A stretch of DNA of 46,162 nucleotides from an uncultured Ferrovum sp. (GTDB taxonomy: Bacteria > Pseudomonadota > Gammaproteobacteria > Burkholderiales > Ferrovaceae). A program made the translations under genes and the position numbers. The notes beneath the pieces are model-generated. The model worked only from the letters and a program-made list of their open reading frames with translations. It searched no databases and was not told the DNA's origin. Below are positions 24,422 to 29,302 of this stretch, one piece after another; position 1 is the first letter of the stretch; the number at the start of each line of letters is the position of its first letter. The stretch is taken from the NCBI GenBank assembly GCA_903905585.1, contig CAIVHB010000140.1:1-46162 (forward strand). Reading direction: 5' to 3'.

Positions 24422-26719
24422 TTATTTAGACTTCATCACAAAAACACCTTCCCAATCTTTAGGGGGATCAAGTTTGAGTTTTTCGCAACGGGCAATATAG
24501 GTTCGACTCAGTTCGTCGCCTTGATGTGCTTTGAGCGACTCGTTAAAACATTTGATCGCACGATCCCAATTTCCCTCTCGATACTCTCCCAGCCCGCCGC
24601 GGAAGGCCGTCAACATATCCATTAACACACTGGCAGGAATATCCTGACGGTGATCAAGAATTTCAAAAACCGTGACCGGCTTGGTTTTTCCTTTCACGAT
24701 CAGCTTGTCAGCTTCGCGAACACGATAAGATCCCTTCAAGCGACTATAGGTGGATTCTGAAATGAGTAGCTTTGCAGAGTATTCCTTACAAGCGCCCTCC
24801 AGTCGCGCGGCCAAATTCACTCCATCACCAATCACGGTGTAATCCATTCGTTTTGGTGATCCAATGTTTCCTGACACCACGTGGTCGGTATTTATGCCGA
24901 TACCCATTTCTACCGACGGCAAACCTTGGCTATTTCTATGGCCATTCCAAAGGCTGAGCTCAGTCAGCATATTGATAGAAGCTCGAACAGCCCGGTCCTC
25001 ATCATCGCCATGACCTACGGGCAGGCCGAAGGCCGCCATAATGGCGTCACCGATGAATTTATCGAGCATTCCACCTTCTTTGGTGATGCAGTCCACCATG
25101 AGCGTAAAATACTCATTGAGAAGCGCTACGGTGCCATGAGCACCCAAGGCCTCTGTAAGGGTTGTAAAGCTTCGCACATCCGTGAAAACGATTGTAGCCT
25201 CTATGCTCTGTCCACCCAGCGCATCTTGCCCACCTGATAGCAGTTGATCCGCAAGGCCGGGGTCCATATAGCGTGACATCGTGGCACGCATCCTTTTTTC
25301 TCCACTGATATCTTCCATCATGACCATAGCGCCCATTTTTTTCTTTTCCTCTCCAACCAGAGGAGAGACAGAAACGTTGGCTGATATGGTCTCCCCACGG
25401 AATTCTAAGGTGGCATCCATCGCAACTTCTTGATCGCCCGCATTCTCAACGCGCTTAATACGCTCACTTAACCACTCGTTGGGGCCACCAAAAAAATCCT
25501 CAAACTTGTGCTTCAGAATATCGTCTGCTTTTCTGAGCTTCATGATGCGTGCACCCGCAAGATTACAGGTAGCAATGAGGCCTTCATCATCGATGGTAAT
25601 CACGCCATTGCTCATACTTTCTAATATGCTTTGATTGTAATTTCGCATATTCGTGACATCGGCAAAAAGCTTCGCGTTTTCTAAACCGATCGCAATTTGC
25701 GCGGTAAATGCACGTAAGCGTTGTTCATCTTCTTGCGTAAATGGCCCGCCGCGTTTATTCAATACTTGGGTGACCCCTATAATGCGTCCGGTTTTATTCA
25801 AAACAGGGACGCACAGTATGGAACGCGTAAAAAAGCCTGTCTGACGATCAAAACCCGGATTGAATCTCAGATCAGCATAGGCATGAGGAATGTTGATCGA
25901 CTTGCCGCTTGTAAATACTGCACCAGCGATACCAAGGTGGTTGGGAAAGCGAATCACATTCGCCCCTAGTCCCTCTCCAACTTGCGACCACAACTCATTA
26001 CGCTTTTCGTCATTTAAAAATAGGGTGGAACGCTCTGCAGCGAGCATATCCTGTGCCTCACCCATTACCTTTTTAAGCAAAGATGAGAGATCCAAATCGG
26101 AGGTCATATCCGAGACGATTTCAAGGAAATGCCGCTCTAAATCTCTCGCAGCCCTTGCTTGCTCGAGGGAAAGAGCCCCGTCCAAAATAGTTGAAGCGCT
26201 TTCGATGAGTTGGTTAGCAATCTCGATATCACGCGCATCAAAATCGCCTTCAAGCTTGTTCAAGCATTGCACAACACCAACCAATTTGCCACGAATTGTC
26301 CGGAACGGCAGCGCCATAATAGATTTAGTGTGATACCCCGTTTGATCATCTATTCGTTGATTAAACCTCGGATCATCGTAGGCATTCTTAATAATTTCAG
26401 ACTCACCTGAATTAAATACTGCCCCTGCAATGCCCACTGTAGTAAGCCGAATTTCATTTGTTACTCCCCCCTGAGCATAGCGCGCGAAAAGTTCATCTGT
26501 TGAGGCATCTTTCATGAGTAAGGTAGAACGGTCTGCTTTCACAGCATGGCTCACTTCAGCAACAAATATTTCGATCATGGCATCCAGCGAATCGCAACTG
26601 GATAATCTTTGTATGAGTTGCAACAACTCCGCAGGAGAAGCTAAATGAGCGGGGGTTCTTTTTGCAGACTTCTTACCTTCACTCTTTTTAAGAAGACTTT
26701 CAGAAGCGGCTTTAACCAT
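24422..26719 (-). CDS. Class III adenylate/guanylate cyclase with two GAF domains and a PAS domain
   Basis: 765 aa cytoplasmic cyclase. Order: GAF1 (about 43-185), GAF2 (about 208-350), PAS (about 362-480), catalytic domain (about 503-690), then a short TPR-like tail (about 700-745). Catalytic residues are present: metal-binding D514 and D558, N635 and R639 for the transition state, and K554 with D626 (MDYTVIG) in the positions that favour ATP. So cAMP is the likely product. Both GAF domains carry the NKx4Fx3D motif (N154..F160..D164; N321..F327..D331-E332), known from cyclic-nucleotide-binding GAFs. The same layout occurs in Anabaena CyaB1/CyaB2. Last gene of a tight operon, two bases after the coiled-coil gene. 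Confidence 0.93.
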   Translation of the reverse strand: MVKAASESLLKKSEGKKSAKRTPAHLASPAELLQLIQRLSSCDSLDAMIEIFVAEVSHAVKADRSTLLMKDASTDELFARYAQGGVTNEIRLTTVGIAGAVFNSGESEIIKNAYDDPRFNQRIDDQTGYHTKSIMALPFRTIRGKLVGVVQCLNKLEGDFDARDIEIANQLIESASTILDGALSLEQARAARDLERHFLEIVSDMTSDLDLSSLLKKVMGEAQDMLAAERSTLFLNDEKRNELWSQVGEGLGANVIRFPNHLGIAGAVFTSGKSINIPHAYADLRFNPGFDRQTGFFTRSILCVPVLNKTGRIIGVTQVLNKRGGPFTQEDEQRLRAFTAQIAIGLENAKLFADVTNMRNYNQSILESMSNGVITIDDEGLIATCNLAGARIMKLRKADDILKHKFEDFFGGPNEWLSERIKRVENAGDQEVAMDATLEFRGETISANVSVSPLVGEEKKKMGAMVMMEDISGEKRMRATMSRYMDPGLADQLLSGGQDALGGQSIEATIVFTDVRSFTTLTEALGAHGTVALLNEYFTLMVDCITKEGGMLDKFIGDAIMAAFGLPVGHGDDEDRAVRASINMLTELSLWNGHRNSQGLPSVEMGIGINTDHVVSGNIGSPKRMDYTVIGDGVNLAARLEGACKEYSAKLLISESTYSRLKGSYRVREADKLIVKGKTKPVTVFEILDHRQDIPASVLMDMLTAFRGGLGEYREGNWDRAIKCFNESLKAHQGDELSRTYIARCEKLKLDPPKDWEGVFVMKSK

Positions 26720-26721
26720 TT

Positions 26722-27393
26722 TTAGCTTTTCCCTTGATTGTTTTGCTGCTCTAATGCGAGCCTAAGCGAATGAATAGTTTCTCTTAGAAGATTTTTTTCA
26801 TTGTCTTCTGTTTGAGTCATTAGCAGGTTTTTTTGCTGATGATGAATTTCTCTTGCTTCTAGCTGTTTTCTAAGCTCATCGAGAGATTTCTGCAATAATG
26901 AGACCTCTCTAGAATGTACCGAATTCGCCGCTTCTAGGTCAGCCAAATTTTGGATTCGCTGTTTTTCCATTGCATCTCGAAGCGTCTGAATCGTACCTTT
27001 TAGCAGCCCCTTTTCGTTATCTTCTGTCTGCGTCAATCGTAAATTTTGCTGCTGATGGTGAGCTTCTCTTGCTTCTAGCTGTTTTCTGAGCTCATCGAGA
27101 GATTTCACTAATTGAGAGGACTCTCGATCACGCATGGAATTCGCCGTTTCTCGATCGGCCAGATTCTGGATTCGCTGTTTTTCCATCGCATCTCGAAGCG
27201 TCTGAATAGTCTCTTTAAGATGCATGATCTGCGCATCATAAGAATGAGAGAGTTCAAGTACTGCCTGAGCGTGTTCTTTATGTAAGGCCTCAAGCGCATC
27301 TCGAGCAGCTCGCTGTCCATCTTGAAGGGTGTCTAGTTCACGATGCAATTGACGCACTATTTCATCGTGAGAGGTAGGTTCTGGTTTAGTCAT
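26722..27393 (-). CDS. Coiled-coil protein with a 72-residue tandem repeat
   Basis: 223 aa, almost all predicted coiled coil (heptad-rich, Glu/Gln/Leu/Arg), with no recognised enzyme domain, signal or membrane segment. Residues 60-131 and 132-203 are near-identical 72-residue units starting TIQTLRDAMEKQRIQNLAD at the third residue, with DELRKQLEARE in the middle of each. Residues 204-223 begin a third, diverged unit. The ATG overlaps the end of the DUF2779 gene by four bases and the cyclase gene starts two bases after the stop, so the three proteins are made together. A linker or scaffold joining nuclease and cyclase is a fair inference; the function is unknown. Confidence 0.8.
   Translation of the reverse strand: MTKPEPTSHDEIVRQLHRELDTLQDGQRAARDALEALHKEHAQAVLELSHSYDAQIMHLKETIQTLRDAMEKQRIQNLADRETANSMRDRESSQLVKSLDELRKQLEAREAHHQQQNLRLTQTEDNEKGLLKGTIQTLRDAMEKQRIQNLADLEAANSVHSREVSLLQKSLDELRKQLEAREIHHQQKNLLMTQTEDNEKNLLRETIHSLRLALEQQNNQGKS
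26785..27216 (-). repeat. Two tandem 216-base repeat units within the coiled-coil gene
   Basis: Unit 1 is 27216-27001 and unit 2 is 27000-26785, encoding residues 60-131 and 132-203. A partial third copy (26784-26725) follows. Long identical runs at DNA level suggest a recent in-frame duplication that could expand or contract by recombination. Confidence 0.85.
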
Positions 27394-28937
27394 GGTCTTG
27401 AGGATGAAACAAGAAGCTCCGTTTCGGAGTGATTCACCATAGCATTTAATATGGTTACGAGTGCAAGACTGTCGAGTCGACAGTAAGTAAATAATTCTTG
27501 CTCGATTTGTGCGCGCCTTTCAAATGATGTTTCCGGTTGTATGGCCTCAACATAAGCTAACACAGCCATATAACCATCTTTAACCCCTTCAAGATGGTCA
27601 TAATTCAGTACCGATGATAAGGTGGGTAATACACGCTTCAATTTCCAACTTCCCCTTTGTTCAGGATGGTAATAGCACTTCTCTACAATTTTAAGTAAAT
27701 CAACAATACGATCCTGTATATCAGACAAACTAGGCTTTAAATCGGCAAATTGCTGGGCCAATGCGCCCAGGCGCGCCAATTCAAAACTGGCATTCCAAAC
27801 AAAAATAGATCCCGTTGTTGGACAAGCCCGCACCAAGGCTTCCGCAAATGCTCTCGAAGGCTCCGCGCCCGAAAGATCCATGAACTCATGGTGATCAAGC
27901 GCCCCATCTTGACGTCGGATGTGCAGGCTAAATTGGAAAGGAAACATCTGATAAGGATGGGTGCCAGGCCAAATGGGTACGGCAAGTTGCACCGCCTCAA
28001 AATCTAAAAAAGTATGAGGCTTCGAATAAGACAAGACCTCACTTTTTGCTCCAGCTCGATCAAAAAAACATGAATTAGAAAGCGTGCATTTTTTTACCCG
28101 CAGTTGAACAGGGGTGAGTTTTTCGTCAGGTACCTCACTGAGCTCACGCGTTTGATGCGCTTGCATCCAGCGCCGCAGCTCTCCCTGTACCCGTGGCAAC
28201 AAATCCACCGAATAAGCCACCGGTGCCTCTTGAGTGCGGCAGTATTTAACAAAACCACAAGGATGGGGGCTTCGGCACTGCGCTCCAGTGAGGATAAACG
28301 GCATGTTCTCAGATGCAACAATCTCTTGAGCTAAGTTCACCCATTGAGCAACTTCATCAAACCGGTTGAGGGCTTCATGAGTAAGATCTATTTCCCTGAG
28401 TAGACCGTCATAATGATCTTGCCCTTTATAGATGAAACTCGTATCGATATGCGCCACCTTCACGGCACTAAGATTGAGGTGCGCTTGTTGTGCAACATAA
28501 GCCTGAATAGCCACATCATCACGATGATTGCCCTTTAAGCTCGTAGAGGATTTCACCTCAATCAATTCCCAACTGCGTTGGCCCGATTTTTTTACAGGGC
28601 GAAGAATATCAATAAAAGCGCGGGCTCCTGCAGCTTGAAACCCTGCCTCAAAAATGGGCACTCTCTTATCCAGCAAAGCCTCGGTTCGAGCAACGCCAGC
28701 ATCGGGGCCCTCTTCCATTACTTGAACGAGCACCCCATTATCTTCTGGGTCATAGAGCTGTCTTGCCAGTTCTCCAACCAAGTCCCCAACAGCGAATTTC
28801 GCCTCCGTGGCGGCAGAGTCTTCTCTTAAAGAGGGCTGATGCACCTCTAGCCATAACCTTCGAGGGCACTGGCGAAACGCCATGAGCTTTGATTTTGAAA
28901 GAGGCCTCACCAACAATCTTGCCTCTGTATTATTCAA
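27390..28937 (-). CDS. DUF2779 protein: PD-(D/E)XK Fe-S nuclease fused to DnaQ-like exonuclease domain
   Basis: 515 aa. The N-terminal half looks like a Cas4/RecB-type nuclease: D110, E127-V-K129 in ELIEVKSST, and Q145-x-Y147. Four cysteines, C24 and C221/C227/C233, are placed like the Fe-S clasp of Cas4 and AddB. The C-terminal half carries DEDD exonuclease motifs: D312-F-E314, VWNASFE (380-386), D413, and CRLDS with D489. Both catalytic sets look intact. No helicase is adjacent. It sits between gcvH (4-base overlap) and the coiled-coil gene (4-base overlap), so it is part of a signalling-linked operon. The family's biological role is not known. Confidence 0.85.
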   Translation of the reverse strand: MNNTEARLLVRPLSKSKLMAFRQCPRRLWLEVHQPSLREDSAATEAKFAVGDLVGELARQLYDPEDNGVLVQVMEEGPDAGVARTEALLDKRVPIFEAGFQAAGARAFIDILRPVKKSGQRSWELIEVKSSTSLKGNHRDDVAIQAYVAQQAHLNLSAVKVAHIDTSFIYKGQDHYDGLLREIDLTHEALNRFDEVAQWVNLAQEIVASENMPFILTGAQCRSPHPCGFVKYCRTQEAPVAYSVDLLPRVQGELRRWMQAHQTRELSEVPDEKLTPVQLRVKKCTLSNSCFFDRAGAKSEVLSYSKPHTFLDFEAVQLAVPIWPGTHPYQMFPFQFSLHIRRQDGALDHHEFMDLSGAEPSRAFAEALVRACPTTGSIFVWNASFELARLGALAQQFADLKPSLSDIQDRIVDLLKIVEKCYYHPEQRGSWKLKRVLPTLSSVLNYDHLEGVKDGYMAVLAYVEAIQPETSFERRAQIEQELFTYCRLDSLALVTILNAMVNHSETELLVSSSRP

Positions 28938-29302
28938 CCCACATTGGCCAGATAGGTCTGAGCATCCATCAGTGTTGTGGGAAGGGCAGCGTGGTCAGGT
29001 TTTATTTTAAGAAACCACCGATCCGCCTCTGGCAAGGAGTTAACCAAGGCTGGTTCGTCAACCAATGCAAGGTTTACCACCTCTATGCGCCCATCAATGG
29101 GCATACGAATGTCCCCTGCGGCCTTAACTGACTCAATGACCACCACTTCGTCACCACTTGAAAAGTGGTGTCCTGTTTCAGGCAATTGGACAAAGACCAC
29201 ATCCCCCAATTGCTCCTGGGCATGGTCAGTAATTCCAATGATCAGGAAACCCCCTTCTTCTCTTATCCATGAATGATCTTCCGTGTATTGCATGCTGTGC
29301 AT
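28934..29302 (-). CDS. gcvH: Glycine cleavage H-like lipoyl carrier protein
   Basis: 122 aa from the ATG at 29302, chosen because AAGGGG lies six bases before it; an upstream in-frame ATG at 29317 is the alternative. The lipoyl domain is complete: YTEDHSWIREEG start, ITDHAQEQLGDVVFVQLPE, and the lipoyl lysine K60 in VIESVKAAGD. gcvT and gcvP are not in the window. Its stop overlaps the DUF2779 start (ATGA). H-protein normally shuttles aminomethyl groups in glycine cleavage and also feeds lipoylation. Here it heads a nuclease/cyclase operon, which is unexpected. It may simply be a displaced housekeeping gene. Confidence 0.88.
   Translation of the reverse strand: MHSMQYTEDHSWIREEGGFLIIGITDHAQEQLGDVVFVQLPETGHHFSSGDEVVVIESVKAAGDIRMPIDGRIEVVNLALVDEPALVNSLPEADRWFLKIKPDHAALPTTLMDAQTYLANVG
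29152..29170. repeat. Perfect 8-base hairpin inside gcvH
   Basis: CACCACTT-GAA-AAGTGGTG, with an extra direct copy of CACCACTT at 29141-29148. It lies in the codons for GHHFSSGDE and could pair in the mRNA in two alternative ways. No T-run, so not a terminator. Confidence 0.4.

Follow-up and report, generated by a model that had tools for sequence, protein, structure and literature searches.

A coiled coil with 36-residue repeats is encoded directly upstream of a CyaB2-like cyclase in an uncultured Ferrovum species and in other genera

The window, a stretch of 46,162 nucleotides analysed as a whole, is contig C140 (CAIVHB010000140.1) of genome G000 from an uncultured Ferrovum sp. (2.29 Mb in 171 contigs, 99.5% complete, 4.71% contaminated). 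Four genes follow one another on its minus strand and encode a GcvH-like lipoyl carrier, a DUF2779 nuclease, a repetitive coiled-coil protein and a class III nucleotide cyclase (Table 1). They had been named in an earlier reading of the letters alone (the original prediction), and were confirmed with their families by an open reading frame (ORF) check and by Pfam and NCBIfam searches. That reading joined the four into one nuclease-cyclase-scaffold system. The present account concerns chiefly the last two genes, which were found to form a conserved, tightly spaced two-gene module in 22 genera among the genomes sampled. Four other genomes belong to the same genus: G001 (locus L003), G002 (L002 and L019), G003 (L005 and L020) and G004 (L004).

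Cyclase homologues were sought at the level of the order, where 32 of 399 sampled genomes matched at E 1e-60 or better (distant homologues included), and in a class-wide sample, where 12 of 369 matched at 1e-120; order and class are Burkholderiales and Gammaproteobacteria in the GTDB sense. A plasmid search with the cyclase gave no match at 1e-60. The upstream side was examined at 43 cyclase loci, 33 with a cyclase at 51.7–100% identity to that of the window and 10 at 36.8–47.8%. Where several upstream ORFs were candidates, the one with the most helix-like composition was chosen; this favours coiled coils, and negative loci were treated alike. The count is independent of greedy ORF calling. 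A coiled-coil ORF was present directly upstream on the same strand in all 33 orthologues; 25 of these belong to the same order, and the remaining 8 are spread over other orders in the class. A candidate cyclase start lay −14 to +9 bp from the coiled-coil stop in 28 of the 33 and 13 to 72 bp from it in the other five, the start nearest to the stop being counted where several were possible.

Distant homologues at 36.8–47.8% identity numbered 12 in total. Four were set aside (L194, L196, L126, L197) because their frame opens within 0–486 bp of the locus end, which is no fair test. The eight testable ones, with at least 1.1 kb before the reading frame, comprised six homologues and the paralogues L167 in G000 and L168 in G004; none had an upstream coiled coil, and a hidden Markov model (HMM) of the coiled coil was negative there as well. 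Eight matches at 43–48% identity that had no locus of their own were left out (G716:C38, G652, G032:C32, G490:C63, G447:C22, G626, G566:C17, G597:C27). The HMM, built on the coiled-coil tail, was run at E 1e-4 on 198 fetched sequences (1.42 Mb, with overlaps) and gave 60 matches: the 33 paired loci, 26 further copies covering the same places, and L118 (G503), a cyclase orthologue outside the set of 43. Matches were confined to loci of this cyclase group. No description of the pair was found in the titles and abstract openings of the open-licence literature. Four loci of a more distant cyclase group (L123, L124, L125, L146) carry, instead of a coiled coil, a long ORF 22–23 bp upstream. These ORFs have closely alike ends, and the one scanned (L123) encodes GGDEF-EAL domains; a coupling of cyclic AMP (cAMP) and cyclic di-GMP in cyclases of this type is possible.

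The last 160 residues of the coiled-coil protein were compared with themselves at successive shifts. The highest peak was at shift 36 (mean BLOSUM62 score 1.18, z 46 against 20 shuffles) and the next at 72, its double. Shift 36 was also the best among shifts 20–49 in 33 of 33 orthologues, and 105 repeat units gave the consensus (.EiaQLKaTvaALRDeLE.aRae.E.AVQ.AvAaa.). Since 36 residues make ten turns at 3.6 residues per turn, the helix would be nearly straight. Structure prediction of the window protein, done for the monomer with a two-sequence alignment and thus silent on the oligomer, gave a single helix over residues 9–222 (214 residues; mean predicted local distance difference test (pLDDT) score 90.3, predicted template modelling score 0.31). 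The protein had no Pfam match above cut-off and no NCBIfam match, and its orthologue in L127 scored below all curated family cut-offs; by these searches it appears to be a coiled coil without a named family. That of G004 is shorter by exactly 72 residues, in agreement with a tandem duplication of two units in the window gene (Table 1).

The coiled coil could instead be a structural or filament protein that is co-expressed with the cyclase without binding it, or could link the cyclase to some other sensor or membrane partner. It is very variable in length (by pattern, 1 to 9 strict motif copies), and in a single case, L141 (8359–10263), an ORF of 634 aa upstream of the cyclase has the coiled coil as its C-terminal part. 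The N-terminal part of that ORF is metallo-beta-lactamase-like (HCHDDH; PF12706 below cut-off), so that the coiled coil can evidently be joined to other modules; a PDB sequence search with the ORF gave no matches. Against this, the pairing was exclusive to one cyclase clade in all sequences scanned, and we regard these alternative roles as somewhat unlikely.

Pfam assigned to the cyclase two GAF stretches, a PAS domain and Guanylate_cyc; a C-terminal TPR match stayed below cut-off in the window protein and in its orthologue from L141. The best PDB match was an adenylate cyclase chain, 1ykd (E 4.3e-44), which we take to be the GAF tandem of Anabaena CyaB2, and the catalytic domain matched 3r5g, CyaB (E 1.8e-35). 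GAF domains of CyaB2-type cyclases carry an NKFDE motif. In the window cyclase this motif reads N154, K155, F160 and D164 in GAF-A, with the final E absent, and N321, K322, F327, D331 and E332 in GAF-B. Six of these residues (N154, F160, N321, F327, D331, E332) are identical in 33 of 33 orthologues, K155 in 32 and D164 in 31. Residues of catalytic type (D514, K554, D558, T628, N635, R639) are identical in 32 of 33, the remaining sequence being gapped at these positions as its contig ends earlier; we take them to be the metal-binding Asp pair, the adenine-type Lys-Thr pair and the Asn-Arg pair. The protein thus has the features of the CyaB2 type, namely two GAF domains before a class III catalytic domain, the NKFDE motif and the six catalytic-type residues. 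It resembles Anabaena CyaB1 and CyaB2 in its tandem GAF domains with NKFDE-type motifs before the catalytic domain, and differs from them in the conserved 36-residue-repeat coiled-coil gene directly upstream; we know of no such gene described for CyaB1 or CyaB2. Binding of cAMP to GAF raises CyaB2 activity (PMC4411481). By analogy, cAMP should bind the GAF tandem of the window cyclase and raise its activity.

Defence-type nucleotide signalling, to whose logic the original prediction had likened the locus, was not borne out. PADLOC PycC models matched the cyclase (best E 1.2e-21), and the match was to the class III catalytic domain, the feature it has in common with Pycsar. The window cyclase differs from Pycsar in its large GAF-GAF-PAS sensor part and in its coiled-coil partner. 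Eight other proteins from around the cyclase were scanned, and none had a cyclic-nucleotide-binding effector domain, the rest of the genome not being searched for effectors. Membership in Pycsar was rejected for these reasons.

Table 1. Coordinates and assignments of the features of the locus in the window.
Feature	Position	Strand	Assignment
Coiled-coil protein	26722..27393	−	223 aa, 36-residue repeats; conserved partner of cyclase
Tandem duplication in coiled-coil gene	26795..27207	−	216 bp = two 36-aa units, 1.9 copies, 81% matches
Class III cyclase	24422..26719	−	GAF-GAF-PAS-catalytic domain; weak C-terminal TPR-like stretch (below cut-off)
DUF2779 protein	27390..28937	−	likely true start GTG 28910; neighbour, outside conserved pair
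gcvH	28934..29302	−	GcvH-like lipoyl carrier, ESVK motif (K60); neighbour, outside conserved pair

The gene junctions were examined for the close spacing from which joint translation of all four genes had been proposed. The DUF2779 and coiled-coil ORFs overlap by exactly 4 bp (27390–27393), and the coiled-coil and cyclase ORFs are separated by exactly 2 bp, both as described. The further 4-bp overlap between gcvH and DUF2779 requires that DUF2779 starts at a doubtful TTG (28937). A start common to five genus members was found at a GTG, ATG or TTG just before a conserved (R)xLSKSKLMA; in the window this is GTG 28910, and 23 bp then remain after gcvH. Joint translation is accordingly plausible for genes 2–4 and unproven for gene 1. 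Scanned with consensus patterns, the minus strand gave one weak terminator-like site (27429–27417) and two weak promoter-like sites (27523–27494 and 27475–27448) shortly before the coiled-coil start. Promoter-like sites were no commoner than in shuffled sequence (6 against 8.4 expected; terminator-like, 11 against 5.6 expected, sd 2.1), so that DUF2779 may or may not be co-transcribed with the pair.

The four-gene order was compared across relatives. It was found in full only in the window and in one sister species (G004), whose surroundings are also collinear (pfkB, acyltransferase, queC, response regulator, histidine kinase), and is thus local. Among 32 genomes of the family, the coiled coil was present in these two alone, as was a close cyclase orthologue (88% identity in G004; other matches at most 46%). 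In G002 and G003 the order is gcvH, gcvP, gcvT, DUF2779, with queC divergent beside gcvH, and no cyclase was found near this locus in the fetched flanks. In G001, gcvH and gcvP are on one contig and DUF2779 is on another, beside an HI0933-like gene. A cyclase domain was detected by HMM in 2 of 33 DUF2779 loci, those of the window and G004 (443 kb in total; flanks unequal, some short, with loci from 3.6 kb up); the same HMM recovered 11 of 11 cyclase loci as a positive control. One search had given 23 other DUF2779 genomes, and the flanks of 20 of these were fetched (left out: G066, G195, G383). Conversely, none of 35 other cyclase loci (343 kb; 15 with flanks of about 1.5 kb or less) contained DUF2779 or GcvH. 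Judged by conservation in other genomes, as the original prediction proposed, the four-gene set fails and genes 3 and 4 hold up strongly.

Ratios of nonsynonymous to synonymous divergence (dN/dS) between G000 and G004 were 0.029 for the cyclase, 0.098 for the coiled coil, 0.058 for DUF2779 and 0.031 for gcvH, at synonymous distances that are saturated because dS exceeds 2 for all four genes. Values for the neighbouring genes were 0.019 (pfkB) and 0.065 (acyltransferase). All four genes are maintained by purifying selection, and dN/dS does not set them apart from their neighbours. This selection, the tight spacing of genes 2–4, the order kept in G004 and the defence-like company of DUF2779 elsewhere (below) would all suit a single system in which the DUF2779 nuclease is governed, by way of the coiled coil, by a cyclic-nucleotide signal from the cyclase. 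The surveys speak strongly the other way: the cyclase domain was seen in just the two DUF2779 loci of window and sister within the fetched flanks, with all HMM controls recovered, the other cyclase loci had no DUF2779, and in G002 and G003 gcvP and gcvT precede DUF2779 with no cyclase. The four-gene nuclease-signalling system was rejected on the count of 2 in 33, and we hold control of the nuclease by the cyclase to be very improbable.

The two catalytic-type domains ascribed to the nuclease were upheld. Pfam gave DUF2779 at E 2.9e-41 and PDDEXK_1 at E 3e-06, and membership in the DUF2779 (PF11074) nucleases follows from PF11074 together with the N-terminal PD-(D/E)XK domain. Invariant over eight aligned sequences were D101, E118-x-K120, Q136 and C15/C212/C218/C224 in the N-terminal Cas4/RecB-like PD-(D/E)XK domain, and D303-x-E305 and D404 in the C-terminal domain of RNase H-like exonuclease fold. 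An AlphaFold2 model (mean pLDDT 91.5) had as its best Foldseek match Cas4 in 8d3l (E 1.5e-05). VIA-align placed residues 1–231 on a chain of Cas4/Cas1/Cas2 (7mi4; Z 15.0, 186 residues, root-mean-square deviation (rmsd) 3.3) and residues 297–494 on DNA polymerase alpha (8g99; Z 15.7, 170 residues, rmsd 2.7). A PDB sequence search with the protein gave no matches. An earlier study assigns PF11074 to the clade of presumed 3'-5' exonucleases and also mentions a DUF83 domain (PMC3985635). In domain order and residues the protein resembles RNase H-like family F.17 with DUF83 (PD-(D/E)XK), and nothing distinctive was found in it save that it neighbours a cyclase in two genomes.

The surroundings of DUF2779 varied. 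A WYL-domain gene was directly downstream in five loci (L150, L021, L022, L023, L007), counted over 33 DUF2779 loci analysed, 30 with anchor, in which greedy ORF calling gave shadow ORFs at GC-rich loci. Trios of an ATP-binding protein, DUF2779 and WYL are annotated on two Comamonadaceae plasmids (L198, NZ_CP019242; L199, NZ_CP049906), one of them followed by phospholipase D-like and DEAD/DEAH helicase genes. In L201, WYL and ATP-binding genes stand beside DUF2779, and in L154 an AAA gene precedes it. The trio is possibly an undescribed defence-type operon; titles and abstract openings of the open-licence literature held no description of a DUF2779-WYL pair. In a Verrucomicrobiales assembly (L006, 1088–7485), an EH_Signature gene, an SNF2/Mrr helicase gene and DUF2779 are consecutive, a neighbourhood that we take to be Zorya-like. 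At E 1e-5, DUF2779 was detected on 30 plasmid records, and phage records gave no match. Taken over these neighbourhoods, DUF2779 would appear to be an accessory nuclease found in many contexts.

The gcvH product matched GCV_H (E 9.3e-34) and TIGR00527 (118.1 bits against a cut-off of 115.85), and the lipoyl-lysine motif ESVK was present in 20 of 20 GcvH sequences compared. It is the sole GCV_H match of G000. No GcvP (PF02347) match was found in G000 or G004, although the same search detected GcvP in 10 of 14 control genomes as well as in G001–G003. A GcvH within a working glycine cleavage system in G000 was rejected on this genome-wide result, and the lack of a GcvP match is what separates the window protein from a glycine cleavage GcvH. 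Two matches to 2-oxoacid dehydrogenase E2 were obtained in G000, so that lipoyl-dependent enzymes are probably present and a lipoyl-carrier role is plausible. In Bacillus subtilis, other lipoate enzymes also receive groups from GcvH (PMC6067878); that GcvH and the window protein have the sequence family and the lipoyl lysine in common. By that analogy, a lipoyl carrier is the plausible and most likely role. A role as LbpA of Hdr-type sulfur oxidation was considered by family score alone, at which TIGR00527 passes.

The simplest reading of the gene orders is that gcvP and gcvT were lost between gcvH and DUF2779 in the lineage of G000 and G004. It is put cautiously because the sisters are far in composition (GC content 0.64–0.70 in the fetched stretches of L003, L019 and L020 against 0.48 in the window). 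The reverse, that gcvP and gcvT were inserted in the high-GC sisters and that the orphan gcvH is the old state, draws on the family pattern, in which GcvH without GcvP is the rule (of 32 genomes, 31 have GcvH and 3 have GcvP). The orphan gcvH of other genera, however, lies in most loci read between prmA and a redoxin-pfkB-acyltransferase block, and the GcvH neighbourhood of this genus differs from theirs. The G000 protein is also closer to those of the sisters bearing the cleavage system (49.6–55.3% identity) than to 15 proteins from other genera (34.5–44.7%). Insertion is on this evidence the less probable course, though a credible minority view.

We consider it fairly probable that the locus is made up of three unrelated units, one of them a real module, in which the coiled coil is a likely scaffold of a cAMP cyclase. 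The first unit would be gcvH, a lipoyl carrier and what is left of a gcvH-gcvP-gcvT locus of the kind seen in the sister species; the second would be the DUF2779 protein, an accessory nuclease unrelated to the pair. Both look like neighbours of the pair by local rearrangement and not like parts of a nuclease-signalling system. In the third, the cyclase would make cAMP from ATP and, like Anabaena CyaB2, would rise in activity when cAMP or another ligand binds its tandem GAF domains. The coiled coil would bind the cyclase and, being straight and rod-like, serve as a scaffold or tether by which the enzyme is clustered or positioned, and the length of the rod would shift through gain and loss of 36-residue units. 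The gene pairing, the repeat, the domain order and the catalytic-type and NKFDE residues are direct observations; the interaction of coiled coil and cyclase, cAMP as product and ligand, and the scaffold role are what we infer from them. More speculatively, and with rather low confidence, the 36-residue units of a dedicated rod may set the spacing or clustering of a self-activating cAMP cyclase, a length-tunable scaffold thus governing local cAMP amplification. Such a scaffold would be, by analogy only, a bacterial counterpart of scaffolded cAMP microdomains.

Several points weigh against three units with a scaffolded cyclase. Repetitive helices can look alike by convergence, and the choice of upstream ORF favoured helix-like ones; chance resemblance is disfavoured because the HMM matches were exclusive and the 36-residue register is common to the orthologues. 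The N-terminus of the cyclase, an obvious contact site, is not conserved, and within the family the pair is confined to 2 of 32 genomes. The gcvP and gcvT genes may have been gained in the sister species instead of lost in that of the window. The four-gene order was kept between two species at saturated dS, and since it survived such a distance there may be a local benefit of co-expression.

What was originally observed at the locus proved largely right and its interpretation mostly wrong, the positive result being an unnamed coiled coil paired with a CyaB2-like cyclase. Close spacing can be deceptive: in the window, gcvH and the nuclease have the look of an operon, yet gcvP and gcvT lie between them in two congeners (G002 and G003). 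The false lead of a nuclease-cyclase defence system gives way to a testable one, a conserved cyclase module that the sampled genomes contain in 22 genera. Should the enzyme be positioned or clustered by the coiled coil, the pair would offer a simple genetic handle on spatial cAMP signalling in bacteria.

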